Assembly: GCA_018398765.1 (NCBI GenBank)
Contig: JAHBMJ010005785.1
Location: 6,827-46,213 of the forward strand
DNA: 39,387 nucleotides
Origin: Chromera velia
Taxonomy: Eukaryota > Sar > Chromeraceae
Direction of reading: 5' to 3'
Positions 110 through 38,900 of this stretch are shown here, piece after piece. The notes beneath the pieces are model-generated. The model did not search any database. It was not told the origin of the DNA and saw nothing but the letters and a program-made list of their open reading frames with translations. A program made the translations under genes and the position numbers. How positions within the stretch are numbered: the first letter of the stretch is position 1; every line of letters begins with the position of its first letter.

Positions 110-3100
110 CGGTTTCCCGTACCGAGCCCCCAAGAGCATTTCCGGGGCCATGTACACATCTGTGCCTGCCTGGGTCATCGCGGTCCCTGCCGGTGTGCGT
201 CTGTGCTCCTCCCTCCTCCCCTTCTCCAATTTCTCCCGTCTCCCGAACAGCTTCAGAAGACGTCGGGGTTTCAGGTGACGCACCTGTAGTCAGAAAGAAC
301 GATTAGATCAAATGAAAAAATCAGAATTTGACCATCGAGGCATCAGAAAAAGGAAGCCCCAAAGGATAAGCAGAAAACAAACGAAGAGAACAAGGAAGTG
401 CAATCCCTGTGCCCAGAGGGATGTTTGTCTGCTTTCTCAAGGACAGAGAAAAAGGCCACCGAAGAGCTAGAGAGAGACACCACAACGAGAAAAGAAAACG
501 CACAACACACATCAAGAAGCCCACCCACCTTGTCTCTCGGGTGAAACTTTCGAGAAAGGCCCAAGTCGCCTGCACAGAGAGACAGAGACACAGAGAGATT
601 GTCGAACTACACAAAGGTAAGTCAACGAAACGACTGGCTGACAGGAAACTCACCGGAAGAGGCAAGGACATTTCTTTCCTTCCTTCTTCTTCGCAGAGGC
701 ACAGGCCTTGCGTCAGAGCGAAACAGACAGACAACCAGGCAGGAAGAAACAGGCAAGGAGGCATGAAGGAAGGAAGGCAAAGTGGAGGAACAGAAGCAGA
801 AAGAATGCGAACTCACCAAGTCTGAGCGTCCCGTCGGCAGAGAGAAAGATATTTTGGCTCTTGATGTCCCTGCGGAGGAACAAAAGGGAAATGGCTTTTC
901 CTTTTTTGAGAGAGACGGCATCCAGGGAACACAGGAGGAGGAGCAGAGAGAGATCGAGGGGCAACGAGAGAGATGCAACATCGAAAGGAATAACAAACAG
1001 TCTCCCCCCCCCCCACTCTGTGCGGACAAGAAGGGCCTGTCCTCCTATTCTTTCTTCTTGTGAAGTACCAAATCCTCCCCTCCGACCCACCCACCTGTGG
1101 AGGAGATTATTCTCATGCAGATAGTGCACCGCCTGGAGGGTCTGGAAGAAGACTCTTCGAATCTGCACACTCGATCAGGCACACACATGTACAGACACAG
1201 ATCCGTTTATTTACTGGATCCTGAAGGAAACTGTACAAAGAGAAAACCCGACAAAAGACCGTTTGCAGGGAGTACAAAAGACGGGAAGAGAGACAGCGCC
1301 GGCCCAACAAACACTCGAGAATTTGGACCTCAACACACGAATAAACGACTGCAAATGTCGGTTCTTTCCTATCATACGCATCTCCTGAGCCTGTCTGCTT
1401 CACTCCCTGCCTGACCGTCTCTTCTGTGAACTCTCTGTGTTCGTGTTCAATCTTCTGTTTCAAGTCCCCCCCTGAGCAGAATTCCATCACGATCATGAAG
1501 AAGCAACGAGGATCGAAACGACCTGCACACATGTGTAGACAGACAGATAGATGCACGCATGTCAATCAAATCAATAATCCCACAGAGCATGCAAGACGAA
1601 AACAAAAACAGCCACAGACATCCAGTCCCCACCCCCCACCCAACCCAATGCATGTAATGCTTCCGTCTGCATGACGACGCTGCAGAAGGCAATCGCGAAG
1701 CTGCAATATCAATAAAACCAGAGAAAAGAAACCTCCTCGCTGTATGACTCGCTGACCGACTGACCGTACTCGAACTCGAAATGAATGAAGTCGCTCTCAT
1801 AGGACACCTGAGCGTGGTCAACGAGGGGGAAGGAGAGGAGAGAAGAGGGGCGTGAATGGGGGTACGAAGAGCGTTTGCAGCACACATAGGCATGGAAGCA
1901 GAGACTCGAGCACCCCTTCATGCATTCATTTTCACACAGAATTCATTTTCATACAGAATTCATGTATGCACTTTTTGAAAAAGAATTCTGTATGAAAATG
2001 AATGCATGGAAGCAGAGACTCAAGCACCCCTTCTTTTTGCACAGAAAAAGAAAGAGAGGGACAGACCCGACCTACCGACTGACTGACCACATATTTGTGT
2101 CTGAGTGTGAGGAGTCTCTTTGCCTCCAGAGAATAAGAATCGGCCTCTGTGATGTCCGTCACGGGGATCTTCTTCATCACAAACACGTCCTTCTCCTTCT
2201 CCTTTCCCCTCCTCTCTCTCTCGACTGTGAACACAGTCCCATACCCCCCTTCCCCGAGCTGCCTCCGCTGGGTGTACACACCCTGACACAAAGGACATTT
2301 GCATCTTCGGTTCATTGAAGTCGCAAGTTTCCACAAATACACACAGCCGAGAATGGCCAGCACGCCCAAGACAAAAAGAGCGCACAGGTTGTCAGAAGAC
2401 AACACCAAAACAATTTGAGCAGGGGGACGAGAGGAAGGGACGGCTGGGGACGATTCGTTCACAGCAACCGCATTTGTCTCTCTCTCCTTCTCTGACTCTC
2501 TCTCCTTCCGAGAGGACGCCTGCTGATGCTGAGAGCAGATGCTGCCCAAACCTCCCACCCCGCCCTTTTTGTCCCTTTCCGAAGTCGGCCTTTTGTGTTT
2601 TGGGCCCTTTTCAGATCCTGCCGGGGCCCCCCCTCCAGAGCAGCCCCTCTTTCTCTTCTGCGGCCTGCTCTCCCTCTGAGGAATCGCATCACTCACCGCA
2701 CTGGGGCTTTCACGGGCCCTTACTGTCTCCTCTTCCTCCTCCCCTAGTGTTTCGACGTCTCCAGACACGGAGAGAGAAACGGAAGAAGGACAGTCAGAAG
2801 ACACCAACACATCCCCGCCTCCCCCCTTGTCCGTGTGAGTACGTATTGAAGAAGAAGAAGAAGAAGAAGATGGCACAGGTTCCTCCTCTGGCTCCTTCTC
2901 TGGACGATCAGGTTCGCACCTCTGTCCCTGGCCATACACACAAGGTCCACCACCCCCAACGCACAACTCCTCAAGGAGAGGCTCGGGCACAAACGGCATG
3001 GAAAGAGACATTGGTTTCCGTTCTCTGTCATCTTCTAACGACGGGCCCTTCTCCTTCAAGGCTGCGACTGCTGCAGCCTCTGCCTGTTCCTTCTCTCTCT

Positions 3101-5340: not shown

Positions 5341-5420
<80 letters not shown>

Positions 5421-6341
5421 ATGCATGTGCAGAAAAGCTTCACAACTCGTTGGACGGAGGTCCGGCAGGCTGCCGCAGAGAGAGCACGGCAGGTTGCGGC
5501 ATCCCGAAGCCAAAAGGGAGCAGGGGAGGCGTTGAGGGAGGGCTCCAACGAGGCTCCAGGAAAGAAGGGGGGAGGGAAAATGAGGCAAATGTTCGAGGAG
5601 GTAGATGCGGACCTGATGGAACCTCCTGTGGCGTTTAGAGAGAGGTCACAAGAAATGGAGATGGGAGACAGATTCTCCGAGAGAGGCGTGATTCTCCGAG
5701 TCATCGAGTCAGTCAGTCAGTTCGTCTGTCTGGTTGGCTGTTTTTCATTTTCTCCGCCTTCTCTCTCTCTCTCTCTTTCTCTGTCTGCACGCTTGTGTGT
5801 TTGTGTGCCTGTTTGTCGGTCAGTCCGAGTGTGTGCATGCATCTGCACCCTCCGCCCCCCCGTCTGCAGACGTCTGTTGAGTCGAAAGGATCACCAGAAA
5901 GAGAGGGCGGCCGCGAGGGCCTCTGCCGGCCTCCTCGGGAGTTCCGCCAACGACCCGGCGGGAGCGGCAGATGGGGGTCTCGTCTCGGGGGCCTCCGGGG
6001 TCACTCCCCCGCAGCCCTCTGGTCCTTCCTCGTCCTCCTCTGGGCCTCTGATCCAGTCCGTCTCCGTCTCTGTGGTGGAGATCTTCGACGGGAAAGTCAC
6101 AGACCTCCTGCAGGACTGGAAGGATCCGCAGGGAGGTCTCCATGTGCCATTCAAGGTCGGTCTGTATGCGTTTATTTTCACACAGAATTCTGAATGCCCT
6201 GAAAAAGAATTTTGTACGAAAAAGAATGCTGTATGAAAATGAATGCCTCCATGTGCCATTCAAGGTCGGTCTGTAAATCGGCTCCGAGGAATCTTCCCCA
6301 CCCTCTCCGACCACGTGGAAGTATTGCAAATAAACGGACAG

Positions 6342-6413
<72 letters not shown>

Positions 6414-9400
6414 TTCTCTTGTTGAAGGGTGACAGTCAATTGATTGGACTGCGGGGGGATCAAATCATGAAGATGCGGGCAATGGATCTGCCGATGAGAA
6501 AAGTATCTGTTTACTACCGCACAGACACAATCAAGGTCACATTCAACAGATGCGCTACTCAGGCCCTCTCATGCCTATCCCTCAAACACTTATCCGCATA
6601 GACAAAAATCACATTATAAACGCGCTTCTCTGCGTGTTCCATGCAGTCATCTTACAGATAAATATCCTGCGCCCCTCTCTCCTCTCCTCTTGTGCAGCCC
6701 ACGTCCCCCTGGGCCACCATCGAGGGCGCGTCTGAGTGGTTCGTGAAGAGGCCGGAAGAGGCAGCCGTGCTTCTTAGACACGCAGAACAAAGGTGGGCTA
6801 CACGTTTTGTTGTTCTTGCGTGTGGGTACCTGCATAGAGACGAAATAGTATTTTGCCTAGACACGCAGGGGAGAGGTGGCCATGCAGGGCAGCAAGATGG
6901 GATACTGACAGAATGATCAACGCTTTTCTGCTTTGGCTAAATCGCAAAGAGAAAGGAAACGGACGTATCGTGAATGTCTTTCTCGCTCTCTCTCTTCCTG
7001 TCTCTGTGCATCTGTATGTGAGATGAACAGATCACTCAGCAGCGGTGTCTTTCCCACCCATTAGAGACATCGCATGTGCTATGCATTTCTTTGAGTGTGC
7101 AGACGCCAGCTTCGTCACTGGCAGCTTGGGAAGGCAGGGAATCTGAGTCGGTCGACGGTGGTTGTGCAGATCTTTGCGGACTCCCTGGCGGCCTCCCCAC
7201 CCCCTGCTCCTGCGGTCTCTCAGCTCGGCATCGGCAGTTCTTTTGCGTCTCCGAAATCTGCTCTGGGAGCCTCTTGGAGAGGGAGGAAGGACAGGGAAGA
7301 GACAGGGTCTGCAGCAGACAGAGGGATTATAGATGGCGGGGGTCATATGGAAAGTTTGGCGTCAAAACGCTTGGGGGGCAAGGAAGGGGAGAAGGAGAAG
7401 AGGAGGCTGAGAGAGCGACTGACGAGAGGGAGCGTAGTGCTCGTAGACCTCTCTTCTTTCCAGAGATGGGAACCTGGACTGTCAGTCAGTTTTTCTCTTT
7501 TTTTCTCTCTCTTTTTCTTCAATCCAGTTAGCCGCCCTTTCTCTTCGCAAATCTGCCATGAACCTATCTATTGAATGGGTAGACTATCATCCATTTGATT
7601 TCACTGGTTGACGTGAGCCCATTTCTGTTTGATTGAATGCAGAGAGGGCACGGCTTCGCTGGCCCCAACTCTCCGGGCTATGTCCTCCGATGGCGGGAAG
7701 GACGAAGAGGGGGAGAGAAGGGAGACAGGGAACGAGAAGGAGAAGGAGGGGGAGGGAGAAGGGGAGGAGAAGAAGGACGAAATCCCGGCAGTTGTCCCTC
7801 CCACACAACTCCGAGAGGGTTCTCAGATTCTTCGGTTGGCATTGGAAGATGTGGACAGACAGAGGGCCAGATTCGATAGAGGACAGGTCAGTGCATTTAC
7901 TTTCATACAGAATTCTTTTCATGCAGAATTACTTTGTTTCGTATGGGAAGAAAAGCATTGGAAGATGTGGACAGACAGAGGGCCAGATTCGATAGAGGAC
8001 AGGTCAGCACGCAGAGAATGGTCTTCGCTGCTTGATGCTCCAGAGAAACGTTGTCAGGGATTCGGACAAAAGAAATGTGCGATACAGAAACAAATTCAAG
8101 TTTCACATTGAACATCCGCATCCTCTCTTCTCTTCTTCCTCTCGCCCATTCATCGTACTGCATCGACACGCACCCATTCAATGCATGGTGGTACAGATAT
8201 TCGTCTTCACCTTCTTCATCTTTTTCTTTTCTGTGCAGCTTCGTCACTCTGCTCTGACTCGTCTCCTCGCCCCCCTCTTCTTTGGAGGCGCCAGAGCAGT
8301 AGTGATTGCTCATGTGTCCCCTGCACCCTCAAAGGCACCTGAGGGCATGGAGACACTCCGAATTCTCACGCTGTTCAAGAAGGTCAGTCAGGAGATGCAT
8401 TTATTTTCATACATTTTCATACAAGAATATTCTGTGTGAGAATAATGAGGGCATGGAGACACTCCGGATTCTCACGCTGTTCAAGAAGGTCAGTCAGAAA
8501 GGAACACTGTGCAAACAAATCCGCTGAGAAGATCCGATTCCATTCAGACTCCACGTTGCAGGACATCTGCATATGTGGGCCTTCCTTCTCGATTCATTCC
8601 CTCCCTCCCTGCAGGTGTTCTGTGTTCCGCGTCCTCTCTGGCTGGCTTTGTCTGACGTTCAGCTCGGTCACCTTCTTCTCCGTTGGCTGAATTACCTCAA
8701 GAGGGGCCTCGGGGGAGTCACCATCGATACCCATGCAAGCGCCAAAATGAGCGACCCCCTCGTCCTGCGGGTAAGTAGATAGATCTTCAATGAATTGGAC
8801 AGAAAACAGAATCCCGTTTTGAAAAGGTGCTTTTGACGCACACACACGAGAAGGTGAAAAGGCAGACAGACCCTTTTGAAAAAGTGCAAAGCATTTGATT
8901 TGAGACCATCTCAGTTTCATGTGAATTTGTTCTCGTAGCACCCCTCTGCTTCAGAACCTCCGCCTGCATGTCAGGAAGATCTTGGAAGAGCTCAAAGCAT
9001 CGACGCTTGATGTCAGGGGCCTGTGGAGACATTCGCTTTCTTTCACATCATATTAATATTTCGTCTGTATCCCTACTATGCATACATGTGACCGCGTAAT
9101 GAATGCTGCAGAACTTCCACCTGATGGTTCTCGAGGAGTTGCGCCTCTCCGCTCGGGAGCTCCAACAGAGACGGCTGAAGGGACTGGTCAGAGATCCGTT
9201 GCCGTGGCAGCATGTGGCGACGTCTGCTGAGGGGCTGGGAGAGGAGGAGGGGGGTGAGGGGATTGAGGGGCCGAGAGGGGTCGGGAAGGAAGGGAGACTC
9301 AGCGCAGCAGCATTCGTCAGTCTCTTTCTGCACCGAGTCTGAGCAAGGGCTTTTTGGGGTCATTCATTTTCGTCAGAGGGAATGGAAGTGAGGACAGAAG

Positions 9401-10421: not shown

Positions 10422-10457
<36 letters not shown>

Positions 10458-13400: not shown

Positions 13401-14076
13401 CTCTCCTCTATCTGTGTTCCTGTCTTTAATCTGGGTCCCTGCAGCGGCTGAAGAAGCTCGCCGATGTCGCCGCGTTCCGGGAAAGGAGGCTCCAGGTTGG
13501 TCTATGAATTCAGTTTCATACAGAAGTCTTTTTCATACAGAAACATGTATGAAAGTGAATGAAGGCTCTAGGTTGGTCCGAGAAGGAGTTTTCTGGGAAG
13601 GGAGGGGAGAAGAAAGGAGTGCGTCTGCATATCGGTATGCATTCCCGGGGCCTACTTTTGAGGTTGCTCATCCTTTACCGCTCCTTGATTGACGTCGAAG
13701 CATGATGATTCCGCTGCAGCTTGGAAAGGATGGATGCATCGATAGAAGGCATGCGTGTATTAAGAGCACATGTAATTCGCACCTACACAAAACAATATTG
13801 CAGGAGCGCATTCAGCAGTTAGAGGAGGAGCGACAGGCAGAGGAGGCCGCGTTGAAGGAGGAGCAGGAGAGGGAGAGGAGACGGAGGAGACGCAACGAGG
13901 AGCTGAAGAAGAAAATTGCAGAGCATCACGCAGCCAGACAATCAAGGTGAGAGAGAATTGAGGTGGAGAAATGACATGAGAAGTAGACAATCTTGAAAGG
14001 CAAGAGGCAAAAACGGTCTGGTCTTGAAGTCTGGCCGCATAAATGGGGTCCTTATTCTCTCTCTCAGTGTCTGCCT

Positions 14077-14115
<39 letters not shown>

Positions 14116-15530: not shown

Positions 15531-16130
15531 AAGAAAGTATTTTTTGTGTTGAATCTTTTGCTTTTTTTCAGACTTAAATTTTTCAAATTTAAGATAACAT
15601 TAATTGCAGGATTGTTCTTTTATCCATTTCTTTGTAAAACTATTGGAATGTGCAATTAATCATTAGATTGAAACCGTATGTAATTAAGGTTTTCATTAAG
15701 ATCTGAGTTTTCAATTTTGAAATTCCGCAATTAAACATTTATTATTATTACTCGTCTAGTCATTCATTTACACTCATTTTTCTAGTTCTACTATTCGTAG
15801 CATCAGCAATTATACTAGCAATTATAATTGACTGAATACTAAGCCGCACATTATCAGTAATAATAAACAATTTTAAGGGGAAAATGTTCAATCTGTCCAT
15901 ATTTATCTATATTTACAATCTTGTTAAAAACGGTTAAAAGTCCGTTGAAACTCCTTTTCTCCCAACTTTTTCTTCTTATTGTCATATCTGTTGAACACCA
16001 ACTTCAAGTCATTTTAATACATGTAAACTTCATAGATCTTCATAGCTAATCTTGTTTCATTGAAGAGGTTTTGCTGTGGCTTTCTCAATTAATTTATCTT
16101 AAGTATAATCTCTCACACCCAGACTGCGGC
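15531..16130. other. AT-rich island downstream of the kinesin-like gene
   Basis: Strongly AT-rich noncoding sequence begins almost at the kinesin stop codon, in sharp contrast to the flanking genes. It includes a perfect 9-bp-arm hairpin, CTTAAATTT TTC AAATTTAAG, at 15573-15593. No open frame or known element was recognised. Confidence 0.6.
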
Positions 16131-16598
16131 CCTCTAACCCACTTGGCACCAGTTGCCCTCCGTGTTACAGTTTTTTGCATGTAAACCTTTTTTTTGCACC
16201 TGAATCACCATGCACGTTGGGGGGGAATCGCCGTACACAGGCCGGGTTTTGAAAAATGGAATGATGATGATATTGAGCTCACCGCCCGGTCCTTGAAAAA
16301 TGGAAAGGTGACGTTGTGGGCCCGGTGCATGGCAACACCGGCCCGCGCCGCCCCCGAGGCCGCCGGGCCGCCGCCCGCCGTGGGCCGAATCTAGCCCATG
16401 CATGAAGGATTCTATCCTGTTCTGTTGGCAATCTAAAGCTGGTGTTCTGTGCTGTGTTCCGCGTTCAGTTCACTCCGACAATCTCCGACAGCACACCCCG
16501 ATTGCACATTTCGCAAGCAGTCCCTCGCAACAACAATCGGAGAAATCTGCAGAGAACTGACAGAAATCTTCACGCAGAGAAAAAGAGGATCTCCACCC
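16131..16598. promoter_or_regulatory. GC-rich block and probable 5' region of the multipass membrane protein gene
   Basis: After the AT-rich island the sequence turns GC-rich, peaking at about 16315-16385, with a CCGGTG/CACCGG inverted repeat and two copies of TTGAAAAATGGAA about 45 bases apart. The frame of the next gene is open from about 16449, and an acceptor-like GTTCAG ends near 16468, so a leader intron is possible. Confidence 0.35.
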
Positions 16599-20210: not shown

Positions 20211-22408
20211 GATTGGAGAGAGAGAGCAGGACGGACGGAAGAAAGGAATAAATCGACACTCCGTTGGTTTGAGAACGTGAAACGAGGAAAGGGGGGGAGG
20301 AATAAATCGACACTCCGTTGGTTTGAGAACGTGAAACGAGGAAATGGAGGCATAAGGCACCCTTGAGTATGTACACACCTGTGTACGTGTCCGTGTGTGA
20401 TTAAGAGAGAGAAAGAGGGAGATGAAGAGAAAGAGAGAGAGACAGACAGAGGGAGAGAGAGATAGAGAGATAGAGGGACGAAGACAGACAGTTTATTTAA
20501 GCGTATGTATGCGTGTGAATAAGATCTTGAGTCTGCATCTGCATCTCCCCGCCGCCCCCCCTCTGTGAATGATATTGATATTCCTCGCAATGCATGGGGG
20601 CACTTGCATGATAGCGAATGAATCAATAAAAAGTTCCCAGGTAAATGTCAGAAATCCAAGTCGACCTGACGCAGCGTACAACAAAAGGGATAGAATGCGA
20701 GCGTAGTGCTCAGTTCTCTTTTCTCTTCTCGTTTATGAGTTCAGGTCAGTGTCGTTGAGAGATTGTACTTTTGTGCGCGTTTGTGAACCGTGTGGGTTCA
20801 CTGTGACGCAGGGTTGGGTTTGCTGGATGGCTGAGTCCGGTTCTGCTTTGCTTTTTCCACTTTGGGCGTGCTTCTATATGCACTGCCCGTGCACATCCCA
20901 TGCAGTCAGGAGGCCAGAGGAACGAAAGACAGCGGGGTGTAACGGGATTTTTTTCGTCGATTGACATTTGCTTTTTCTCTCTAAAAAAGGCTCGTGCGTA
21001 GACATGTAGATGCGTGCAAAAGCCTCGTTGGGGGGCGCACAAATTTAAGGAAAAGGGAGCAGCAAGACCAAAATGAGAGAGGTGTTTAATGTATGGATTC
21101 ACGCACTGGCTGGAAATGCCGTTTTCGTCTCTCGAAGACATTTTGGAAGAATGAGAGCGCGATTGCTTGTTTTGCAGTAGAACTCGCACTGTTTTGTCGC
21201 ACATGCGAGTCGAGATGCGAGTTTTCCGAGAAAGTCGAGCTTTCAACTTAAAGTTTGAATGAGCATTCTGGTTTAGATTAATTAGATTCTGGTTGGTACT
21301 GGTTAAGATTTTCTTGGTTTTATGCCCAACAAATCTAGGAACAAATCCATTTTGTTCTGCTCTCTAATCTGCTCTGGATTTTAAGTTTGTGTATTAAAAT
21401 TTACTTTGAAAATTCACCCATAATTGATTAATTATTCCCCTAACGAAGTGTGGTGCAGTAGCTAGCTTCTTGTACGGGGCTCATATGGTATAAGAAGTTC
21501 TGTCATGCAAGGTTGTTACATCCAGATGCTTTTCTACAGGCTCTTATGCAGAGACTTGGCTAATTGCTGACTGCATGCATGTGACTGCATTAATTGCATG
21601 GAGCCGGCTACGGACACAAGCTCACTCGTTATGCGCGCACTCTAAGGATCCTGACATGACTTGACACTCTAGGATCCCACAATGCTACGATTCCGACTTA
21701 TAACTAGACTTTGAATGAGATTCTAGTTTTAATTTTATACAAGTTTTATGATCAATATCGAAATTGATTGATTAACTGATTGATGGATTTTTCTTGAATA
21801 TCTGAGTCCTTTAGTTATTACTCAGTTGTTCTCTAATGCTAAACACGTAAGCACATCATAAGCACAGACTGATACCTTAATTTTAAAAATTACTTATGAT
21901 TGATTGATTGATTGGTTCCGCGCTAGGCCTTCCCGCTATGTCAAGGTGTCGCCAACACATGCTATGACAGCTATATACATGTTCTAGTGTATGCTATCAT
22001 TGCTATGGTCTTCTTCATTACAGCTAGCCATTAGAAAATCGGTGCTTTAAATTGGCTATGACGCTGCTGCCTCTCATCTAGCTTCTCCTGCAGAAACTCA
22101 TCAAATCTTTTGACACCTTTTCAAACGAATTAGTACCCGGTAGACTTACAAATAAACTGATGAATTGCTCCGTAGACAAATCCGCGCGACCCTCATTGGG
22201 TGTCATTAACACGCTATAAACAAACACCGCCCCCCTCCTTTCCCTTCTCGACCGCGGCGCAGTCTCTCCTCCTGGGACTGCCTTTGCGATGACACAAGAC
22301 ACAAAACGCGCAATACAAAACCCCCAGCCCTCTTCATATTCTCTCTGCGATCCTGATAACAACAACCCTGTCGAAGAGACAAGAACCCCCTCTCCTTTTC
22401 CTTCCCTC
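20211..22408. other. Convergent intergenic region with an AT-rich island
   Basis: Lies between the 3' ends of two convergent genes. It holds a 47-bp duplication (20244-20344), a GA-rich run at about 20405-20475, and an AT-rich island at about 21245-22080 with repeated ATTGATTG and CTGGTTA-type motifs. Open frames here have no recognisable domain. The stretch from 22080 to 22408 may belong to the 3' UTR of the RS-rich gene. Confidence 0.5.
20244..20344. repeat. 47-bp direct duplication around a G-run
   Basis: Two identical 47-bp copies (20244-20290 and 20298-20344) are separated only by GGGGGGG. They lie just after the stop codon of the multipass membrane protein, so probably in its 3' UTR. 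Confidence 0.85.
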
Positions 22409-23818: not shown

Positions 23819-25497
23819 CGGACAGTAAGACGCTCTGCCAGAAATTAATGGAAAGGCAGAAAACAGAAGATCGACTTGAGCGTCACGTAGATGCCTCGTT
23901 CATTCCCTGAATGACAACTGACTGGAAAAGAAACTCACTGATCTGAACAGGAAGACCTAAGACCTTGGCAAGAACAAGAAGTCTCTATGGATGATCCATC
24001 GAGAGGCAATCACAACAGACGACGTCACTCTTTAGTGTACTGTACGCATGTATATACGTCTGATTGCTTGTTGTCTTGGCACTGCTGACTGCATCGCTCT
24101 CCAGTCTGAAATAGTCTGAAGATTTGTCTGAAGCATTCGTTCTGAAACCATACGACCAAATTATTTTCATCTCGGCAGATTTTAATTTCGGCCGTCTCCA
24201 TACATCCGTCTCCAAAATGTTTCCATGCTCCTGCGGGCATGCCCGCCGCGCGGCCGGGCAGCCCGACCGCTGACCGGCCGCGGCGCAGTCTAGGGTCTAG
24301 AGTTGCCCTGGTCATGTAGCCGCTGCCCGGGCGGCTGCCGAAGTATACCAATTAAAGTCAAACTGCCTCGAGCACCTCGACTTTAATAAGCAGTTCGACT
24401 TTAGTTTTATTGTAGCTTTTAATAAACCCCTGTGGAGTCCTACCTTGTGGTGCCGCCTTTTGAGCCTTTGCATGCGCCGTGACTGCGTGAGCCCGCGTGC
24501 CACGCCACATTCCACCGCTGCGCTTTGCTTCGCACGTGTCGCACGCGTCGATCAAAGTCGAGTCTGACCTTTGCCTTCAGGCATGCAACATGTCACTTGA
24601 GCAACGGATATTAATAGCATCGATCGTTTGAGTCTGATGCCTGTTCGACAGTTCTATATAGACACAGCTCCAGAGAAAGGAATGAGCAGAAACCGTGCAT
24701 AATAGAATGAATCCAGCTGATTGGAATCCCAGATCGCGCTAGAGCTTAAACTAATATAGAGCCAAACCTTCTGTAAAGTGTTGTCTGAGTTAGTGTTGCT
24801 CACGTTCCTTCTCTTAACCTCCCCTAGGGTTCTTATCCTCGCTTAACCTTCTGTCTGGATACCGTAAGGTGGCCAGACAGGAGGGACAAAGCACCTCCTA
24901 ATTACAGCCTAAGTTATAACGTGCGTCTTTTAAAATTTAGATTTATTTAATTAAAATATGATCTCAAAAGTTATGGATTTTATAATCAAAACGTAGTATA
25001 AAACGAGTGAAACATTTTAAGGTCCATTTATTAGTATTTATCTAGGCAATAAAATTTTATACCAGATTCGTAACCAGAGTAACCAGAATCTAAACGTACT
25101 ACACCAGAGTACAATCATATGTTCTTTTCAGACATCATTTTTTTAGTTTTAGCTTAATTTAGAATAATGTTTTAGATATTCAACGCCTTGGCTTGAATCT
25201 ATCATCAAAAAGACCTGCAAGTACCTACAAGTAGACTTTGTTCTCTGTATATGAAATTATATATATTTTTTTAAATATAGAATTGGATGAAGATGGTTGG
25301 TAAACTGTTGATTTACGGTCTCACTCGCATGGCTAAATTCAAAATCTTTCAAAACGCAGGAGCAACGTGCAAGCTGCAGTCTCAGTGGAGGGACATTGGA
25401 GGCGTTCGGATTGAGCAAGTGATTGACCGACTTCCCTCCTCCATAGGGCCTTGACCTCCTTAGATGCCCGACCCCTCCTTCTTCCCCCTTTGTCCAC
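23819..25497. other. Intergenic region with promoter of the RS-rich gene, GC-rich block and AT-rich island
   Basis: The part next to 23818 should hold the promoter of the RS-rich gene. A very GC-rich block (about 24235-24300) is followed by mixed sequence and an AT-rich island (about 24900-25270) downstream of the ankyrin gene. A motif near 25064-25094, read on the minus strand, shares TTAGATTCTGGTT with the island at 21282-21294. No coding sequence was recognised. Confidence 0.45.
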
Positions 25498-29300: not shown

Positions 29301-30978
29301 CAGAAGGAGGAGGGTAGAGGGTAATTGAATGACTGTGCATGCATGCATGTTTTGTGAGGACCCAACACCTTTTCCCACCCCCGTCCGGTTTTCCTCTTTC
29401 TGTGTGATCAGAGAAGGCAACTGGAACTTTCCCATTCCTCTGTACGCCTTTGCTTTCTCTCGCCTATCTCTTTCTCTCTCTCATCCAATCGGGGTGATGA
29501 CTGACTTGAGAGAGATCGTGCATGTCCTTCCTCCCCTCGATCATTTGTGTGAATCTGTGTCTGTCTGTCTGTCTGGATGTCAGAATTTGCCTCCCTCGAT
29601 CCAAGTTTCAAAGGGTGAAATGAAAGACAAACAATGGCCGGATGACTTGACAATTTACTGATCGAGTCAGTGACCCAGCCTATCAATGAATGAATCTGTG
29701 TAGATGAATGCATCTCTTGGGTGATTATTTAACGGACGATGGCCGGGTCGTGGCAGGATGGCTGTCGGACTCAAACAGTGTCGGAAGGATTCCATTCGCA
29801 TGACATTGTACGTATGAACTCATACAGCCACCATTGCCCTGAATGCGGATGTTTCACACGGTGGGAAGGCTGTAAAACAAGGCGGCCGGACGAGAAGCAA
29901 GGTTCAGAATGTAGAGAACTAGGTGAAGAAAGAGTGGTAAGCTTATTTGGACTTTTGGGCGTAAATCTTTGAAAAGAGGTAGAGACTTTTGCACAGAGTT
30001 CAGCATGGCTGCCATCACGTAAGGTTTCAAGCCCGCAAAGTCGGTCTGGCTGGATTGTGCATGGTCGTTTAGTTGGACTCATTTTAGTAGACTCTGCTTG
30101 CATTCTGTGGAGTTCAATTCTCATCACTACGCATCACTACATTCTTTCAAGATTATTGATGATTATTCGTGTTCTATCATCAAATTCTCTTGCATCTACT
30201 TGCATCCAAGGCTCCGTTTGCAATAAATCTGTACGTTTTATTGCTTAAATCATAGTCTTAATCATTCATAAATAGTTTTAAATCTTCAGATAATTCACAA
30301 ATAGTACGTAGGATAGTTTCGTATTATTCATAAGTATTCTAGTGACAAACTCATTATAATTTGCAAGTAATCAAAAATTGATGCTAAAATTGATGTTGAA
30401 ATCGTTTTACAGCCTAGTTTGCAGCATTTCTCACTGTATTGGTTACTAATAATCTGAACGATAATAGAATTTTTTCTTAATGAGAATTAATCAGAACTCT
30501 TCTATTTGTAGCTCAACTTTATTCAATTTTAAAGAATATGTAACATAATACGTTTTACTAAATCATTCAAGTTTTATGACTTTCAGTTCTTAAAAATTCT
30601 TTGGATAAATATTTTAGTGATGATTTTTTGGCCTTCTGAATAATATTACAAGTTCTTTTGTGTCAGATTTAAGACTCAGTCTGCATCTAGGTCTGCATCG
30701 TCTCAGCAACATTCAATCAACTACGGTATTGCAAGGTTATGCCATGTACATATCGTGAATTTATAATCGACAAGAGACAATTCCATGCAGTAGTAACTCC
30801 GTCTTGGTGTTTTCATCGAAAAGAGAATTCGATTGATATCCTGTCCACCAGTCGCCCTCTTCAATCTTCCTTCCCCCCCCGCTGCCTGCCTAACGAATCC
30901 ATTCCCAATCTTTAGAAATAGGCGCCCACATTCGAAGATCCTTCTTTTGTGTTCCTCATCCCGTTCTTCTTCCTTCCT
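29301..30978. other. Convergent intergenic region with an AT-rich island
   Basis: Lies between the 3' ends of the four-span protein and scramblase genes. AT content rises sharply from about 30100 to 30835. A 77-codon frame at 29739-29972 with a CPECGC motif is the only open frame with an ATG worth noting; it has no support beyond being open. Confidence 0.45.
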
Positions 30979-32316
30979 TCAGCCGGTGCTGTTCTCGTCC
31001 TTCTTTCCCCCCTGGAACATTCGGAAGTCGATGAAGATCGCCGCAGTGACCAGCATTGCCTTCCACTGGGGCTCGCTGACTGCACCGAAGTCCACCCTGC
31101 AGGCAGGCACTCAATCAATCAAAGGCAGAATGTCATTCATTCAGTTATCTTGGACTCTTCCATTTGATCAAACCTTCATCTCAAGGGACCAGTCAGTCAG
31201 CTAGTCCGTAAGTCATTCACTCACCCTCTCACTTACTCACTCCCTCACTCCCTCCCTCCCTCCCTCCCTCCCTCCCTCACTCACTCCCTCACTCACTCAC
31301 TCACTCACTCACTCGATCAAGGACTCACGGAAATCGAAACCAAAAGAAGCGACTAAACAATTCAAGGAAAGACAGACCACCACTGTTGCTATATACGGGG
31401 GGAAAAAAGGAAAGACGGACCAGTATTTGTCGTTCATGTCATCCGCAATAGTGCCCAAGCACGTGTTCTCCTGCATGCGTGCCAACACATGTCGATCAGA
31501 ATTGTACAGGAGAAACGAATGCATACAGACGAATGCATCGATCCATGCATTTACTTTCATACAGGAAAAAAAAAAGAATTGTGCAGGAGAAACGAATGCA
31601 TACAGACGAATGCATCGATCCATGCATTTACTTTCATACAGGAAAAAAAAAGAACCGTACAGGAGAAACGAATGCATACAGACGAATGCATCGATCCATG
31701 CATTTACTTTCATACAGGAAAAAAAAAAGAATTGTACAGGAGAAACGAATGCATACACACGAATGCATCGATCCATGCATTTACTTTCATACAGGAAAAA
31801 AGAAAGAATTGTACAGGAGAAACGAATGCATACACACGAATGCATCGATCCATGCATTTACTTTCATACAGGAAAAAAAAAAGAATTGTACAGGAGAAAC
31901 GAATGCATACAGACGAATGCATCGATCCATGCAGTGCCTGGCACGGGCATATTCTGCACCATGCCACAAGAAAGCAGTCCAAACATGCAGAGCCATGGAA
32001 AGCCTCCTTTTCTTTCAAGCTGGCCAACGATCTCCTTCGATAGAAAGCAAAGGGGCACCTTTGGTCTTATCGACTCACAGATAATCTTTCCCTCAAAAAG
32101 CTTTCGCGCTCTGTTTCTCTGTGTCTCTTACCTCATCATTTTCTGTCTCTGTGTCTCTTTCTCTTTGTCTTCTGTCTCCCCCCTCTCTCCTTGTCTGTGT
32201 GTTGTCACCAAGACGATCTCTGTAAGTCGCATGCTTGTGTGATCTTGAGTGAGTGAGTGAGTGAGTGTGTGTGTGTGTGTGTGTGTGTGCGTGTGCGTGT
32301 GCGTGTGCGTGTGCGT

Positions 32317-32360
<44 letters not shown>

Positions 32361-35289
32361 ATTTCTATTCGAGTATGCATGAATCCACATTTTCCCTCCT
32401 TCCCTCCCTCCCTCCCTCCCTGCAGACCTTCACGATCTGTCCCACGGCCTGCTGCGACTTCATGTCGGTGATGTCGAACTTCACGTACTTGCACGGACCT
32501 GCACAGGCACGCACACACAGTTAGAAAATCGGACATTCTCATGCACATACACGCAGAAATAAAGACAAGCTCAGACACATACACAGGCACATACACACTC
32601 ACACACGTATCCTCACACGTAATAGTTCCTCTACCCAGATGGACATAAACGTGTGTCTCCTGACAAAACCCCAACCCCCTCCCTCCCTGGCCGCCATAGC
32701 AATTTTCATTCTGCCTGCCTGCCTGCCTGCCTGACTGACTGACCACAAGGGCACTTGCAGCAGATCCCGCACTGCATACAGTTTCCCTTGATGCGGAGGG
32801 TGGGGTTCTCCTGCAGACAGGGAGAGAGAGAGAGAGAACACGGGGGGTGAGGGAAGACGTACACTGACAGACAAAGACAGAGACCGGAAGAGGTACAAAG
32901 GCAGATGGAAAGACGGAAAGACAAAAAGTGGGCAGAGAAAGAGAGACAAACATGCAGACAGGGAAGGACATCGAGACAGCTTGATGGACGCAGGCAGTCA
33001 GGCAGACAGGCGGGCAGACAGACAAGGAGGCACGGACAAAGACAGAGAAAGCGACTTTCTTTCGGAGTGACTCTGCAGACGTACAGACAGACGTACAGAC
33101 GGACTGGCTGACCTGATTGTCATTGATGGAGAAGATGTGATTGCAGCAGTCAAAATCATCCTTCAGGATTCCGATCTGCTGACCTGCAGGCAGATTGGTT
33201 GTAGAAGGATTGATTGATTGATTGATTCATTGATTGATTGCTTGCTTGCTTGATTAATTGATTGATTAATTGATTCATTGATCGATTGATTGCATGGATA
33301 GATAATCGTTAATTCATTCTGTACCCATCGCATCCGCAGAATCACAAATCCCGCTGCAGCGTTTCGGACGACAGATCTAGTGGAAAGCGGAGCATAGAGG
33401 GACAGAGAGAGACAAAATATGAAAGACAGAGACCGAGAGAGACTGACCGGTGTGGTTGTTCATCACTTGCATCTTCGGTCTGTTGAGGCAGCAGCAGGTC
33501 ATCTGGCACTCCTTATCGGCCTTGATGAACGGTTGGGGGGACTGTCCGGGAACTGCAATCAAGCAAAAGAGTCACAGCGATAGCAAAGATCGAGGTCAGG
33601 GATAGAACTGGGAGGGCTTCCCAAGGCTCAGACAAATCGGACCAAACCAGATTGAAAGTCGAAGCCGACACTCTTCAGAGCACGCGGATCAATCCACGTG
33701 CAGCCAAGACACTTCTTCATACACGCAGGCGAGACGATGTCTGCATACCTTCACATGCGGACATATTCACACGTACACTCGCGCACGCACGGAGAGGGTG
33801 AGAGGCAAAGAGAGCCTAGACAGATGTCCGACCGATCAACCGACGGACCTTTGATGAACATCTCCTGCATTCTTACATACAAAATTTTGATACATACATA
33901 CATAATGCATGCGACGGACCTTTGATGAACATCTCCAAGTTGAAGGGACGACAAGTCGTTCTGCAGCCAGACAGCATGCGGTCATGAACTGAAAGGGTGC
34001 GGACTAGACGATGAAGCACAAAACAAAAAGAAATACGACATGCAGGGTCCCGCAGTCTCCATTGAGCAGGCAGAGGAGGATAGACAAAAAGAGACGGGCA
34101 GACAGGTCCAGGGGCAGGCAGCCACGCAAGGACGGAGGTCAGCAACGAGACAGCGAAAGGAGGACAGGCAGGCAACCAGACATTCATGTTTGAGTGTTCT
34201 GATCGACAGCCGTCGGTTACGCACGCACCCATACAAATATTCTATCGGCCAGTACGTAAGGACTCGACTGACGGCAGACAGCATCTAGCGCAGAACCCCG
34301 TGGTCTCCTTGGCGATGAACATTTCGTTCCCGTTCACATCCTTTACCGCATATCTGTGTATGGATCGATCATTCGTATGCGTGCGTGAAGGAGCACCGCG
34401 TCTTTTTCGCATCAAAATGACATTCAACGAGTAAGCTGCAGAAACACTTTCCCTACTGAAGGCCTTCGTATAGCCGATCTGTGAGAAATTCCTCTTCGGA
34501 AATTCTGCATCAGTCTGTGCTCATCAATGTGTGAATCCATCCGCCAAAACAATAGTGACTGAATCTGCATGTATGAGATTCGCTGAATGACCGTTTTCCC
34601 TTAAGAAACTTTACACTGTCAGGCAGTTGAACGGCAAAAAGAAAAGAAAAGAGTCCATTTGCGGAGAGAGAGTGTGCTGGAGGAAAACAAACTTTGCACT
34701 CCAATAATCGCTCCATTAGAAACAAGAATTCACGCGGCTGTTTTTGAATCATCTCTCAGGCACAAAGCAGAAGCGAGAGCCCTCTATGTACATGTTTGTG
34801 TGAACACAATTGTTTTCACATCAGTGTTCCTCGACTACGATTATCTCCAGATCCAAACGCCCCCCTTCACGTTCTGCCCTCCGGTCCTCAGGAGGATAGA
34901 TGGAGGGACGCGTACAAGGTTGGATGCCTGACCGTGATGGTGCTTTGAACCGATACGTATGCATATATGTATGGATGCACCCATGAGGGCGTTCTTTCCC
35001 TTTCCATCCCTTCCTTCTCTCTGTCTCTAATCCTACTGACTTGTTCGCCTGGTCGATGCCGATGAATTCGAGGATCTTGATCTTCTCCTTCACGTACACC
35101 TTCTGCTGAGCTGCATGGAAGCATGAATGTTACTCATCGATCGGTCTCTGCATATAGATGCTCGAAAAGACGCATATGTAAGTACTGTCACTGACATGCG
35201 AGCATCTGGAAGGGATCCATTGTGAACTGCATCGGTGGAGCGGCCATGGGCTGCCCGAACTGCTGGGGAGGGGGCTGAGGAGGCTGCAT
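30979..35289 (-). CDS. Phospholipid scramblase family protein
   Basis: Ten minus-strand exons join in frame: 35289-35196, 35110-35041, 34353-34273, 33960-33920, 33552-33448, 33183-33113, 32810-32744, 32498-32428, 31470-31421, 31096-30979, giving 255 residues. The N-terminus is Pro/Gln/Met-rich (MQPPQPPPQQFGQP), as in many scramblases. Conserved blocks follow in family order: VKEKIKILEFIGIDQANKY, VKDVNGNEMFIAKET, CRPFNLEMFI, Cys cluster CQMTCCCLNRP, IGILKDDFDCC, second Cys cluster CMQCGICCKCPCG, FDITD, and IADDMNDKYWVDFG. A C-terminal hydrophobic helix, WKAMLVTAAIFIDFRMF, precedes a short polar tail. The family moves phospholipids between bilayer leaflets or binds DNA/Ca2+ in some members; the Cys clusters are likely palmitoylation or metal sites. 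The frame is open upstream of the ATG to a possible acceptor, so extra N-terminal sequence is possible. All nine donors are GTC-type. Confidence 0.88.
31225..31318. repeat. (TCAC)n / (TCCC)n tetranucleotide repeat, scramblase intron 9
   Basis: Runs of CTCAC and CTCCC units in the intron between scramblase exons 9 and 10. Confidence 0.85.
31499..31934. repeat. Tandem array: six copies of a 51-bp segment separated by five element-like spacers (locus F)
   Basis: Unit of about 77 bp in scramblase intron 8. A 51-bp segment starting GAATTGTACAGGAGAAACGA is present six times, separated by five near-identical spacers TTTACTTTCATACAGG plus an A-run. Together with the preceding TGCA, the spacer matches the left end of the inverted-repeat elements at the other loci. 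The differences are a few point changes and A-run length, so amplification is recent. It is not coding; the open frames here result from the repeat. Confidence 0.8.
32249..32359. repeat. (GAGT)n-(GT)n-(GTGTGC)n microsatellite, scramblase intron 8
   Basis: A compound repeat: GAGT units, then GT, then GTGTGC hexamers, then GT again, downstream of scramblase exon 8 in gene sense. Confidence 0.9.
33208..33296. repeat. (ATTG)n tetranucleotide repeat, scramblase intron 5
   Basis: ATTG units with ATTA, CTTG and ATTC variants in the intron between scramblase exons 5 and 6. Confidence 0.85.
33841..33936. mobile_element. Palindromic element with 25-bp flanking duplication (locus H), scramblase exon 4 donor
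   Basis: Perfect 25-bp repeats at 33841-33865 and 33912-33936. Read on the minus strand, each holds the end of exon 4, AAAG, followed by the donor GTCCGTCG. The 46-bp element between them is close to a palindrome: TGCATTCTTACATACAAAA at one end and an inverse of TGCATTATGTATGTATG at the other. The core differs from loci A-E but the TGCATT ends and the placement at a donor are the same. Confidence 0.65.
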
Positions 35290-35920
35290 GTCACAGATGG
35301 GGTCCGGGTTTGAGAGTCTGACAAGGTCCGAGTTCCCTGATTTGCCACCGAGCGCCAGAGCGAAAGAGGCCTGCACGCGTCCGCTTGTTCGCCAGAGAGG
35401 TGTCTGAGGACTTCAGTCGCGATCTGTAGAATTCAGAGTGAATATCTGAATCACAATCGGACAGCGAAACTGCATGCTAGAGGGGTCGAGGTGCTCCTTT
35501 TGCATGCATGTGTTGAAATTGCCGCGAATTAACTTATATATATATGCATGCATGCATGCAGGCGTCCGCAACCGCGCGGTTCCGCAAAAAAATTATGCAT
35601 GCATGCGAAATCTTTTGATTGCGATCATCCGACTCAACATATATGCAAAACAGATTGATCGAGAGATGATTGCATGAGAGACTCGGCAAGATTGCAAGAG
35701 AATCTGCCTGCGTCATTACAAAACTTCGTACTGTTTGAAAGGCAACGAAGGCGCAGCACTTCTTGCGTGAAGCCGCTAGGGTACTCTGCTAAAGCACCCT
35801 TACCCTCAGGCGAGTACTTTTGACACACGTGGTACAATCAAAAACGTCTCCATTTGTACCCGCTTCCACCTCAGGTTGCTTCCCTGCAAGTGGACGAGAG
35901 GCCCTAGAGCGAGTTCAAGA
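35290..35920. promoter_or_regulatory. Divergent intergenic region between scramblase and the gene 8 secreted protein
   Basis: It should carry both promoters. It contains a TATATATATATGCATGCATGCATGC tract near 35536-35560, quoted here as alternating TA followed by GCAT units. The frame of scramblase is open for 29 codons into this region, preceded by an acceptor-like GTGCAG. Confidence 0.35.
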
Positions 35921-38900
35921 ATGACTCGTCCTCTCCCCCGGAGCAGCCTCTGTGGGTGGAGGATTGGGGTCACTTTTTCTGTCTGGCTGCTCTTCTGTGT
36001 CAGTCTCTCCGATGCTAAAGGAAACACACGGGCACGAGAGCGGCTCTTTGCTTCTTACAGCGACCCGGGTCTTACTCATAAATCTCTTGCAGAGGAACTG
36101 GGAATAGGTGAGTCGTCTCTGTCTGCATGAGTGTCGTGGTTCATGTGTGAAGACGTATATGCACGTGCATGCGGTTGTATATTGATCCTTGCTTCCGGCA
36201 GACATGCATGCGTCCTCATGTATACATCTATGTCTCTCTTTGTAATTTTCAGTCACCGCGTGCCTTTTTTCTGAGACTCTGTCTGTTTGAATAGTATAAA
36301 AACAGTCCTTCTCTATCTGAATGGATACAAGGCTGAATGCACATGCGTCCCGGGAATGTGTGTACAAACACAGAGACAAGAAGGATATCTAGACGCCCAT
36401 GTCTGCTTGCTGATCCTTAAGTCGGTCCATGAAATATTTTGCTGTTTGTCTCTGTACATGACTGAGCGGTTGCAGAGACGGGAAGCATCCGTCTGTTGAA
36501 GCACAACAGAGGGAGTGTGATGGACTTGGCAGGTGCCGTTGAGGAGGCAGAGGCGTGCGTGCTGAAGGGAACGGGAAGGAAAATCATCCCCGAGTTCTCG
36601 GATGCTCAGATGGCAGATCTGAAAAGCGAGCAGGCTCTCGATGCTGCAGAAGAACATGAAGGTGTCAGAGAAGCCAAGAAAAACGACAAAGCATTGAAGG
36701 GAAACAAGAAACAAAAGGGAAGAGTGGCAAAAACTTTGAAAAGATGGAGAGCATGGGTGAAGGGCCGATGGAAGAAAGTGAAGTCGTTCAGGTTCTCGAA
36801 GGTGCGCGCGAGCCTGTCCAAAAAGTACAAATTGTGGGAGGTCGCACGATCAAGAGCCAAACTCGCGGGGGTGCTAAAGAAATACGAACTAATCGACCCT
36901 ACTGCAAAGTGCTTCCGCACACTTCGCCGCCTCCCTCAGGTCGGACAACCCTCCCCTCCTGCACAAGGTGCGAATGAATGTTGTGCCTTCATGGGCAACT
37001 AACAAGCACTCATACATACTTGGATGAGATGTCCGTCCCCACTTCACATCGTCCCTCCGCGTGCCTCCCCAGAGGATAAAGCGATGTGTTCTTTCTTCTT
37101 TTTTGTTCTCTCTCACTCCGACTTTCCTCTCAGCTCTTTGCTGTCTCCCTCTTCTTTTCTCTGATACATCACATCCATCTCCTGTTCACTCCTGTATCAG
37201 CACACAATGCTCGTTTTCAATTTTGACTCCCGTCAATCTTCCTTCCTCTCTCATCATCTCAGAGCCATGTAGACCAAAAGGGCACACACAATTCGACCTT
37301 CTCAGGTCTCTTTACATATTCTTGTCTGCAGGTGAAGAGGACAGACTTTGACCTTCTCACCTTCTGCAAGCTGACCACTGACCAGGTCTGTGGCGAGGCC
37401 TATGTTCACATGGACGGCGCAACTTTAGAGAACACCTACAAGACCCGTCCCCAGAAACTGCAAGGCAACACCATCACAGAGCAAATTTCGGATAGAAACC
37501 TTGCCAAACACAGCAACGCTACGAGCAAAGACTTTGAGAGAGAATATTTGAAGCAGCACGAGGACCCGAGTGCCACGAGTGCCCCAGTACGGGACCAGTA
37601 CGACGCCTTCCACATGGATGACCCGAATTTATCGGAATTCGAAAACAGATTTTGGACACAAAAGGAAAGTTTCAGGTGAGTGGGACCTGCGATTCGCCCT
37701 GTTTACAAACGAAAAGAAGAGTAGAGGACATGATATGATGCTTTTCTTCTTCGTTTCTGAGCATTGAGAGGAGAAGGCATCGGAGAGAATGAGTACATAG
37801 ACTAAACGAAGGAATGAACTCATGAATGAATGGACGTCTGGAGAAATATCGCCGAAAGAAAAGAACGACTAAATGGACAGATGAATCCAATGCCAAGTGC
37901 ACGTAGGTACGCCCAAATCCGAGCATGCCATCACATGTTGATCCACAAGACTTACGTCCCGATGGAGAAGATGATCAAAGACCTTATCTGGCAGAAGAGA
38001 AAGAACCTCATCGGCATCACACTCAAGTTCTTCATCATCGCGGGGGCAGTCACCGCAGCGGTCCTCGTGCCTCCCGTCAGTCCAGTCTCTCTTCTTCTCT
38101 GTGTTGTTTGATATGCCTCCCGTCAGTCCAGTCTCTCTTCTTCTCTGTGTTGTTTGATGTGTTTTTTGATGTCTCCCGTCAGTCCAGTCTCTCTTCTTCT
38201 CTGTGTTGTTTGATGTGTTGTTTGATGTGCCTCCCGTCAGTCCAGTCTCTCTTCTTCTCTGTGTTGTTTGATGTGTTGTTTGATGTGCCTCCCGTCAGTC
38301 CAGTCTCTCTTCTTCTCTGTGTTGTTTGATGCCTCCCGTCAGTCCAGTCTCTCTTCTTCTCTGTGTTGTTTGATGTGTTGTTTGATGTGCCTCCCGTCAG
38401 TCCAGTCTCTCTTTTTCTCATCTCAGCTCGCTTACTCGCTTAGTGCTTCGCTTCGCTTTGCCTCCCTCCCCCCCCTCTTGCCTCTTCTCTTGTGTCATCT
38501 CATCTGTCGTGCCTTCCTTCTTTTACACGGACTCATGCAGCCCTTGCTTGGGTCTCAGCAGCCTCCCTCCCTATTGCAGCCAAGAATATTGAGAGTCAGA
38601 ATGGCATCTCGGAATCTTCTTCCCTGCATGCGTGTGATACCTATTGCAGACCCTGGGCCTCAGCATTTTCTTTTTTTTTCTTTTCTGTATGAAAATAAAT
38701 AAATGAATTCTGCTTGAAAATAAATGCAGACCCTGGGTCTGAGCATTTTCGCGACAGCGGGTCTGGGAACAGCGATCGCCGTCGGGTCATTTGCTGGTCG
38801 GAACGCGGTGGATTACGTGACGGGGCAGGAGGACGCATTCTCGTTCGCGAAGATCAAAAAGTTCGGAATGCAGGAGACGGCTGTGTACGCTCTGTCTATA

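Follow-up and report, generated by a model that had tools for sequence, protein, structure and literature searches.

The genome of Chromera velia carries a family of short inserts, flanked in most cases by long direct repeats, in which each insert looks freshly built, without copying from the other inserts. In our reading, whose chances we judge to be evenly balanced, each insert was synthesised anew at its own site, both 3' ends of a break with a long stagger being extended along a template. Mobile elements usually come to notice through the descent common to their copies; since here the arm is common and the interior changes between sites, the family may well escape standard repeat finders.

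Loci in the window and across the genome

Within the window (the whole 39,387-nt stretch analysed), seven loci, A-E, G and H, consist of inserts of 46-84 bp between direct repeats of 22-53 bp; the first-pass annotation had described seven inverted-repeat loci with long direct duplications, and all of them are present. Their repeat pairs reach alignment scores of 29-106, whereas the best of about 300 random 60x60-bp pairs scored 23, and the 18-bp core has 19 matches in the window at ≤3 mismatches (shuffle mean 0.03). At locus A, two 30-bp repeat copies (1890..1919 and 2004..2033, 29/30 identical) enclose an 84-bp insert (1920..2003) with two plus arms, one minus arm and a hairpin fold z of -5.6. 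The 80-bp insert of locus B (6167..6246; inverted arms, fold z -4.5) lies between copies identical at 29/29 positions (6138..6166 and 6247..6275); the first holds the exon end at 6155, the donor and 11 nt of intron, and the donor of the second, if used, would add 109 nt and shift the frame. At locus C the copies (7839..7891 and 7955..8007) are identical over 53/53 positions and surround a 63-bp insert (7892..7954) with one plus arm at ≤3 mismatches; here the exon ends at 7886, followed by the donor and 5 nt of intron, and use of the second donor would add 116 nt, again with a frame shift. Locus D has the same layout, with copies at 8340..8391 and 8446..8497 (51/52 identical), an exon end at 8382 with donor and 9 nt of intron, a second donor that would add 106 nt and shift the frame, and a 54-bp insert (8392..8445) with two overlapping plus core matches and, by eye, a degenerate minus end.

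The remaining splice sites were assigned by motif only. At locus E the first repeat copy (13481..13502) includes an exon end, a donor and 7 nt of intron, and the 54-bp insert (13503..13556) contains two plus cores and one minus core, the last core extending 6 bp into the second copy (13557..13578, 19/22 identical). Locus G, read on the minus strand, has an exon end and donor in a repeat identical at 25/25 positions (33841..33865 and 33912..33936), around a 46-bp insert (33866..33911) with degenerate arms and no core match at ≤3 mismatches. Locus H shows a TGCAG acceptor and exon start in its first copy (38645..38670), which is 24/26 identical to the second (38725..38750); its 54-bp insert (38671..38724) carries two minus cores head to tail, the last core extending 3 bp into the second copy. 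Locus F is a tandem array (31504..31934, end set by eye) of five cores spaced 76-77 bp, with neighbouring units 95-99% identical. In single-strand folding against their own shuffles, the inserts of A, B and E folded better and those of C, D, G and H (4/7) did not. A plain tandem duplication lies at window position 20244.

The repeat of E measures 22 bp rather than the length of about 16 given in the first-pass annotation. The description there of the insert ends as inverted or half-inverted needs qualifying: with ≤3 mismatches allowed, the two arms of H point the same way, D shows two overlapping plus arms, C one and G none. By inspection, B, C, D, E and G have an exon end plus donor and H an acceptor, in line with the five donor loci and one acceptor locus of the first-pass annotation, with open-frame support for B, C and D only; A would be its intronic locus.

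Allowing ≤2 mismatches, the core motif matches the whole genome 1,413 times and the reversed control 15 times, which bears out the proposal of a genome-wide family. We sampled 150 loci, all picked by a good arm copy, so that one-ended and degenerate cases are possibly miscounted. Four (L045, L080, L081 and L082) were left out because no arm copy with ≤1 mismatch stood where one was expected, and 14 more, overlapping others or inside arrays, were removed by hand, which left 132 non-redundant loci. Clear flanking repeats were found in 116/132, with a median of 38 bp, a range of 16-71 bp and a standard deviation of 12.4; the other 16 scored <28 and were excluded from the length and position counts. 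The repeat score had a median of 61 for real flanks vs 15 for mismatched flanks, and only 3/1,043 mismatched pairs reached the threshold of 28. Chance or simple repeats as the cause are ruled out by the shuffles, the reversed-pattern control and the mismatched flanks. The repeat pairs were 100% identical in 24/116 loci. Longer repeats tend weakly to enclose shorter inserts (correlation -0.28), possibly through an effect of the alignment; the templated-extension model makes no such prediction. The base composition of the repeat ends, with both orientations pooled, revealed no strong nick motif, and T was scarce (10%) immediately outside the repeat, perhaps a by-product of aligning to the arm's T.

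Arms, junctions and interiors of the inserts

An arm was recognised at both ends of 70/116 inserts, at the left end only in 20 and at the right end only in 26 (46/116 one-ended), in a test allowing ≤6 of 21 mismatches. The two arms of one insert belong to the same subtype in 56/70 cases. Of 186 junction sides, 36 had the repeat edge exactly where the arm starts, 30 had it 2 nt within the arm and 8 had it 4 nt within, and filler of 1-31 nt was present at 88, a raggedness that departs from precise terminal inverted repeats. Conservation drops inward from about 98% to about 50%, on the left (89 sides) as on the right (90 sides). The inserts have a GC content of 28%, and no tail, either A-tail or simple, was seen in them by eye.

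Palindrome 8-mers cover 48% of the sequence of 84 interiors, compared with 5% in shuffles, and the interiors are, by this comparison, scrambled pieces of a 74-bp perfect palindrome. Similarity between whole inserts reaches 0.84 at best (1,544 pairs of 104 inserts with a length difference ≤8 bp), and at least 15 nt are common to 69/3,486 interior pairs (all pairs of the 84). Exact palindrome pieces make up 40/69 of these long common words and 29/69 are not exact; the 14 longest consist of arm pieces carrying some added letters, a join of two arms, or CATA repeats. As the non-exact words were inspected only among these 14, it is possible that a few interiors are common by descent. Taken together, the arms are alike and the interiors differ by site, without the similarity expected from descent between copies. 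L151 is a chain of arms, and L152 and L153 contain near-complete palindromes. In six arrays with at least three copies, nine adjacent complete-unit pairs are 95-100% identical; agreement is lower in two-copy arrays and for last, padded units (0.51-1.00).

These features bear on a MITE-like family, in which a transposase would make an unusually long and variable stagger and the interiors would be scrambled later through palindrome instability. The terminal inverted repeats of the 70 two-armed inserts, the matching subtypes at their ends and the near-complete palindromes are what such a family would leave, but the 46 one-armed inserts and the ragged junctions are not, and inserts are scrambled to the same extent whether their repeats are identical (palindromicity 0.56, n=23) or diverged (0.59, n=31). 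Repeat identity and palindromicity are uncorrelated (rho -0.04, n=112), and later decay of intact palindromes is unsupported, scrambling showing no increase with age. Inverted arm pairs 1-10 kb apart, expected if an autonomous element had these ends, were not seen by eye in the listed 100 of the 119 half-arm places. The duplications are not of the fixed short kind made by MITEs and TIR elements and, as had been suggested, their long and variable lengths fit no standard transposase. The inserts are unlike ordinary MITEs, and we regard this origin as improbable.

Somewhat less doubtful, though still unlikely, is the capture of DNA hairpins or fragments at long-staggered breaks through end joining that involves a polymerase of the Pol-theta type; the palindrome would then be DNA rather than an RNA copy, and the scrambling would arise by template switching in repair. 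Junctions with 2-4 nt overlaps and filler, and slippage-like interiors with template jumps, agree with it, as do the tandem duplication at 20244 and long repeats around non-core AT-rich spacers; with such non-core repeats also present, duplication may be a general process. Break repair filler normally comes from nearby or random DNA, however, and here one arm sequence recurs in the 1,413 core matches. A repeat-first scan of 184 kb of flanks (part overlapping) returned 37 repeat pairs, namely 10 core, 14 plain tandem and 13 non-core; eight of the 10 core pairs lie outside already sampled arrays, and only about 5/13 non-core pairs look insert-like by eye, which also speaks against general capture. 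Long direct repeats around AT-rich non-core spacers were observed at L029:2056, L032:635 and L066:903.

A model for insertion

That the inserts are largely arm pieces can be read from the sequences themselves; under the templated-extension model, the order, direction and priming of the events would be as follows. Two nicks about 15-70 nt apart, a spacing suggested by the repeat lengths, would open the DNA. The 3' ends would then be extended by copying a fixed arm of about 37 nt, half of the palindrome, with priming often via a 2-nt TG or 4-nt TGCA match and with early stops, returns to the arm start and slippage during copying. The complementary arms of the two extended ends would pair, or one end would join directly, and gap filling would give the order repeat, arm, arm, repeat. 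Genic inserts would survive mostly where the duplicated stretch holds a splice site, because the mRNA is then unchanged, a generalisation drawn from the reading frames at three window loci and one succinate dehydrogenase (SDHA) locus. If this reading is true, the genome contains about a thousand natural records of DNA-end extension and joining, and splice-site duplication is a simple, harmless entry of insertions into genes, with implications for intron growth and for how alveolate introners arose. The alternative of a repair-based duplication, offered by the first-pass annotation, comes close to this explanation.

Target-primed reverse transcription from both ends fits best, with a putative reverse transcriptase that would act on a small hairpin RNA and prime at both ends ('symmetric twin priming'); the predicted template transcript would end ...GAATTCTGTATGAAARTRAATGCA. 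Reverse transcriptases are abundant in the genome, with 1,759 candidates, of which 150 were scored and matched. On the other side, Rfam gave only sub-threshold matches, mostly microRNA-like, in five loci, a perfect hairpin is a poor polymerase template, and a palindromic DNA donor would equally give matching subtypes at both ends.

Twin-primed LINE insertions arise by target-primed reverse transcription at both target ends. They resemble the inserts in the flanking duplication, the inverted halves and the truncated and jumping copies, but here a single short palindromic template serves both halves, which begin at its same end; neither a long element nor a tail is seen, and the repeats measure 16-71 bp. 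Of the traits of SINEs and LINEs, the variable-length target duplication is present, as are fixed outer ends with the copy truncated inward from both sides; the tail and single orientation are absent, both ends beginning with the same arm start in the 70 two-armed inserts. Non-LTR retrotransposons of the CRE/R4/R9 type are long and site-specific, whereas the inserts here are about 60 bp and dispersed; target duplication is common to both. In the excerpted text of PMC3636483, all known CRE and R4 elements, and R8 and R9, are described as duplicating their target, and a title cited there calls the R9 target duplication 'exceptionally long'. The mobile GC clusters of yeast mitochondria are, in the relevant part of PMC4478555, short palindromes subject to merging and shuffling, the four commonest being flanked by AG or ACT only. 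Such clusters are organellar, GC-rich and bounded by direct repeats of 2-3 bp, unlike these AT-rich inserts with long repeats, whose loci are probably nuclear, since split genes with kinesin, SDHA and MTHFR domains occur in some flanks. A viral or prokaryotic origin was rejected, there being no exact 29-base match in viral_contigs and no 27-base match in genome_contigs.

Position relative to genes and splice sites

Gene models were evaluated for the 69/116 loci that are 3 kb long, using a home-made model of limited recall. A first coding model, built on both-strand ORFs, was noisy and was replaced by a second, seeded with hand-picked window exons, so that its success inside the window is not independent. 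Repeats cross an exon border in 12/69 loci vs 3.6% of random segments (about 5-fold, p=6e-6) and lie inside exons in 1/69 vs 13% (p=8e-4). By loose motifs, 53/116 loci have a splice site, vs 35.4 expected. The anticipated excess at splice borders was thus recovered; the statement that the duplication usually spans a splice site describes this window, but genome-wide such loci are an enriched minority. By strict motifs, counted over 232 orientations (both strands of the 116 loci), donors peak 5-10 nt inside the repeat edge and acceptors at 0-5 nt. A fuller reading, in which inserts not related by descent were written from one hairpin template onto long-staggered breaks placed near splice sites and are silent in the host gene, is put forward tentatively, as less likely than not. 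On that reading, the sharp placement would reflect a break coupled to exon-intron borders, for instance via transcription or splicing.

In the kinesin-like gene that holds loci B, C and D, the predicted exons join in an open frame through the upstream donor only, and the acceptor of the next exon lies well downstream of the second repeat copy. The upstream donor alone also preserves the frame in the SDHA gene (locus L089), so that the mRNA is predicted to be unchanged in both genes. True introners, whose insertion would give rise to new introns with the duplicated target as the source of both splice sites, are very improbable here. AG|GT often occurs in the repeats close to the insert edge and could in principle supply both sites, but at the kinesin-like loci the frame points to the upstream donor with a distant acceptor, and 56/69 loci score as non-coding. 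By frame, the inserts of B, C, D and L089 lie at the donor of a longer existing intron and none is a spliced intron of its own at a new position; the term introner, used in the strict sense, is therefore not supported, the inserts adding no intron in the two readable genes.

Known introners share some of these features. Those of Amoebophrya, also an alveolate, have internal inverted repeats, with direct repeats at exon/intron borders that are only 3-5 nt long, and the element is the intron, according to the sections of PMC7789003 on them; here the repeats are longer (16-71 bp) and the element sits at an existing donor in the genes that could be read. Across diverse eukaryotes, the text drawn on from PMC9860276 describes target duplications that can supply splice sites and many families with terminal inverted repeats. 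Target duplication and inverted arms are thus common to both, but the earlier-characterised families treated there have repeats of 3-9 bp, with the element being the intron. Neither Chromera nor Vitrella is named in the main text of that article.

Pfam assigned 12 families among 132 ORFs beside 68 loci. Family searches near the loci gave no match for the first ten and, for the second ten, placed SDHA, EGF, MTHFR and a weak beta-propeller. The protein of the window gene model had no homologue at E≤0.001 among 8,000 candidates scored. No paralogue offering an empty site was found among 40/60 scored candidates of a DNA search with 6000-8600; besides itself, this query returned matches of about 30-90 bp that by query position were mostly inserts and low-complexity sequence. 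At one conserved gene the duplication proved to be derived, as had been expected.

Inserts, direct repeats and abundance of the core

The seven inserts named in the first-pass annotation (loci A-E, G and H, between positions 1890 and 38750) were all recovered by local alignment, with lengths of 84, 80, 63, 54, 54, 46 and 54 bp at A, B, C, D, E, G and H, respectively, and direct repeats of 30, 29, 53, 52, 22, 25 and 26 bp. Their repeat pairs score 29-106, against a maximum of 23 for ~300 random pairs, and the 18-bp core motif of the insert ends matches the window 19 times at ≤3 mismatches (mean for shuffles 0.03). The core is also present throughout the genome, as had been anticipated: a search of 177.8 Mb in 4,040 contigs (published assembly: 193.66 Mb, 5,953 scaffolds; PMC4501334) gave 683+730 matches at ≤2 mismatches, compared with 7+8 for the reversed pattern, and exact matches number 201 and 272 for two sister forms (controls 0). 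A repeat-first scan of 184 kb of flanks of known loci, which may be richer in inserts than the genome, yielded eight additional inserts with the core. Since six of these eight exceed two mismatches, the core count is probably a lower bound on insert number, although inserts average 1.25 core matches each.

We sampled 150 loci picked by a good arm (~37 nt, half of a 74-bp palindrome) in contig order, plus three with long palindromes; 146 were placeable, 132 were non-redundant and 116 had clear repeats. The repeats are long and variable, as first proposed, with a median of 38 bp and a 5-95% range of 21-62 bp around inserts of median length 62 bp. Identity between copies has a median of 95% (24 of 116 pairs are identical), and only 3 of 1,043 mismatched flank pairs reach the score threshold. 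In contrast, the sources consulted give duplications of 3-9 bp for introners characterised earlier (PMC9860276) and 3-5 nt for Amoebophrya elements (PMC7789003). Yeast GC clusters are reported at AG/ACT (PMC4478555). Target duplication is described for the CRE, R4, R8 and R9 retrotransposons, exceptionally long for R9 according to a title cited there (PMC3636483). We found no prior description of the palindromic insert family in the open-licence literature searched; the Chromera genome paper gives a general account of transposable elements, totalling ~30 Mb (PMC4501334).

Long duplications also arise without the palindrome, as seen at 20244-20344, where 47 bp are perfectly duplicated in tandem around a spacer of seven G residues and the core is absent. 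Direct repeats of 69-82 bp around core-free, AT-rich spacers of 27-33 bp (L029:2056, L032:635, L066:903) perhaps represent other insert families.

Arm structure and mode of insertion

Read inward from either side of the insert, TGCATTYAYTTTCATACAGAATTCTTTTTC declines in conservation from ~98% to ~50%; together with its continuation AGGGAGC and their mirror it forms a perfect 74-bp palindrome. The palindrome centre has 44 genome matches at ≤3 mismatches (control 3) and the half-arm 119 (control 0). Nearly complete palindromes occur in L152 and L153, and arms are chained with jumps in L151. Palindrome 8-mers cover 48% of insert interiors (shuffles 5%), and arm subtype is equal at the two ends in 56 of 70 inserts, implying that a single kind of template serves both ends.

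Several features speak against copy-and-paste from a few masters. One recognisable arm only is found in 46 of 116 inserts, and junctions are ragged: among 186 sides the repeat edge lies at the arm start in 36, two nt inside in 30 and four nt inside in 8, with filler at 88. Whole-insert similarity peaks at 0.84 (1,544 pairs among 104 inserts, length difference ≤8 bp). Only 69 of all 3,486 interior pairs share ≥15 nt, and 40 of the 69 shared words are exact palindrome pieces; the 14 longest, those read by inspection, consist of arm fragments carrying a few additional letters, of a junction between two arms, or of CATA repeats. Descent from few masters should leave interiors alike, yet these are unlike beside repeats ~95% identical, which disfavours it. 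Scrambling after insertion is unlikely, as interiors are equally scrambled beside identical and diverged repeats (rho -0.04).

The arm, junction and interior sequences are consistent with two-ended 3' extension on a short template, with an RNA, an enzyme and an order of steps that we infer. At a break with a long stagger, each 3' end would be extended by copying a single short template, a process prone to premature stops, jumps and slippage, after which the arms would pair. Such a process would resemble twin-primed target-primed reverse transcription that leaves long duplications, and reverse transcriptases are abundant in the genome. Its main rival is capture of a DNA hairpin during break repair.

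Tandem amplification of repeat-plus-insert units was observed at L007, L024, L052, L061, L138 and window position 31504, the eighth window locus (F). Twelve loci tried gave 2-5 copies spaced 71-129 bp; L049 and L088 are one array reported twice. In six arrays of ≥3 copies, nine adjacent complete-unit pairs are 95-100% identical; two-copy arrays and last units, the latter padded past the array end, span 0.51-1.00. Such amplification offers a path to minisatellites. The stretch from L061:1876 to the locus end is a long, degenerate array built from units resembling TTAGGGTTCACGTAGGGTCAG, similar to telomeric repeats.

Splice sites and host genes

Over 232 orientations, donor motifs concentrate 5-10 nt before the repeat end (14 versus 3.5 expected) and acceptor motifs 0-5 nt from the repeat start (13 versus 3.3); part of the acceptor peak may be explained by overlap of TGCA in the arm with TGCAG acceptors. 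When the empty sites of 69 loci were reconstructed and scored with a home-made gene model, 12 repeats spanned a coding border, compared with 3.6% of random segments (p=6e-6). The proposed excess at splice borders thus stands, as a property of a minority of repeats rather than the usual one: 56 are non-coding by the model and one is wholly coding, versus 13% of random segments (p=8e-4). In this sole coding case, L037, TGCAG was seen by eye within the repeat. Random insertion and survival alone would place ~4% of tolerated sites at borders, against 12 of 68 observed, a gap that requires some preference for exonic or border DNA.

Pfam matches a kinesin motor (residues 372-411, E 8e-10) in the window gene at 5870-8770, whose frame 1 is open through seven predicted exons with the upstream donors of B, C and D. 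Substituting the second-copy donor singly at each of these loci would add 109, 116 and 106 nt, respectively, and introduce 8, 5 and 4 stops in frame 1. The L089 exon aligns gaplessly over 93 residues with a solved succinate dehydrogenase, ending in the repeat-encoded peptide, matched as one stretch; use of the second-copy donor would lengthen it by 100 nt and introduce two stops. There, at least, the duplication is thus derived and, judged by frame, silent. Other conserved flanks encode MTHFR at L056 and an EGF protein at L066.

At 38068-38410 a core-free tandem array of a ~46-bp unit contains, by eye, the end of an exon with its donor (CCTCCC|GTCAGTCC), on that reading a splice site duplicated by a different route. 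Donors near 5708, 8383 and 11672 often continue, also by eye, into GTCAGTCAG or GTCGGTCGG micro-repeats, giving tandem copies of the 5' splice signal. The window, elsewhere near 0.5 GC, has AT-rich stretches at 15601-16200 (GC 0.32), 21001-22200 (0.40-0.41), 24601-25200 (0.36) and 30001-30600 (0.32).
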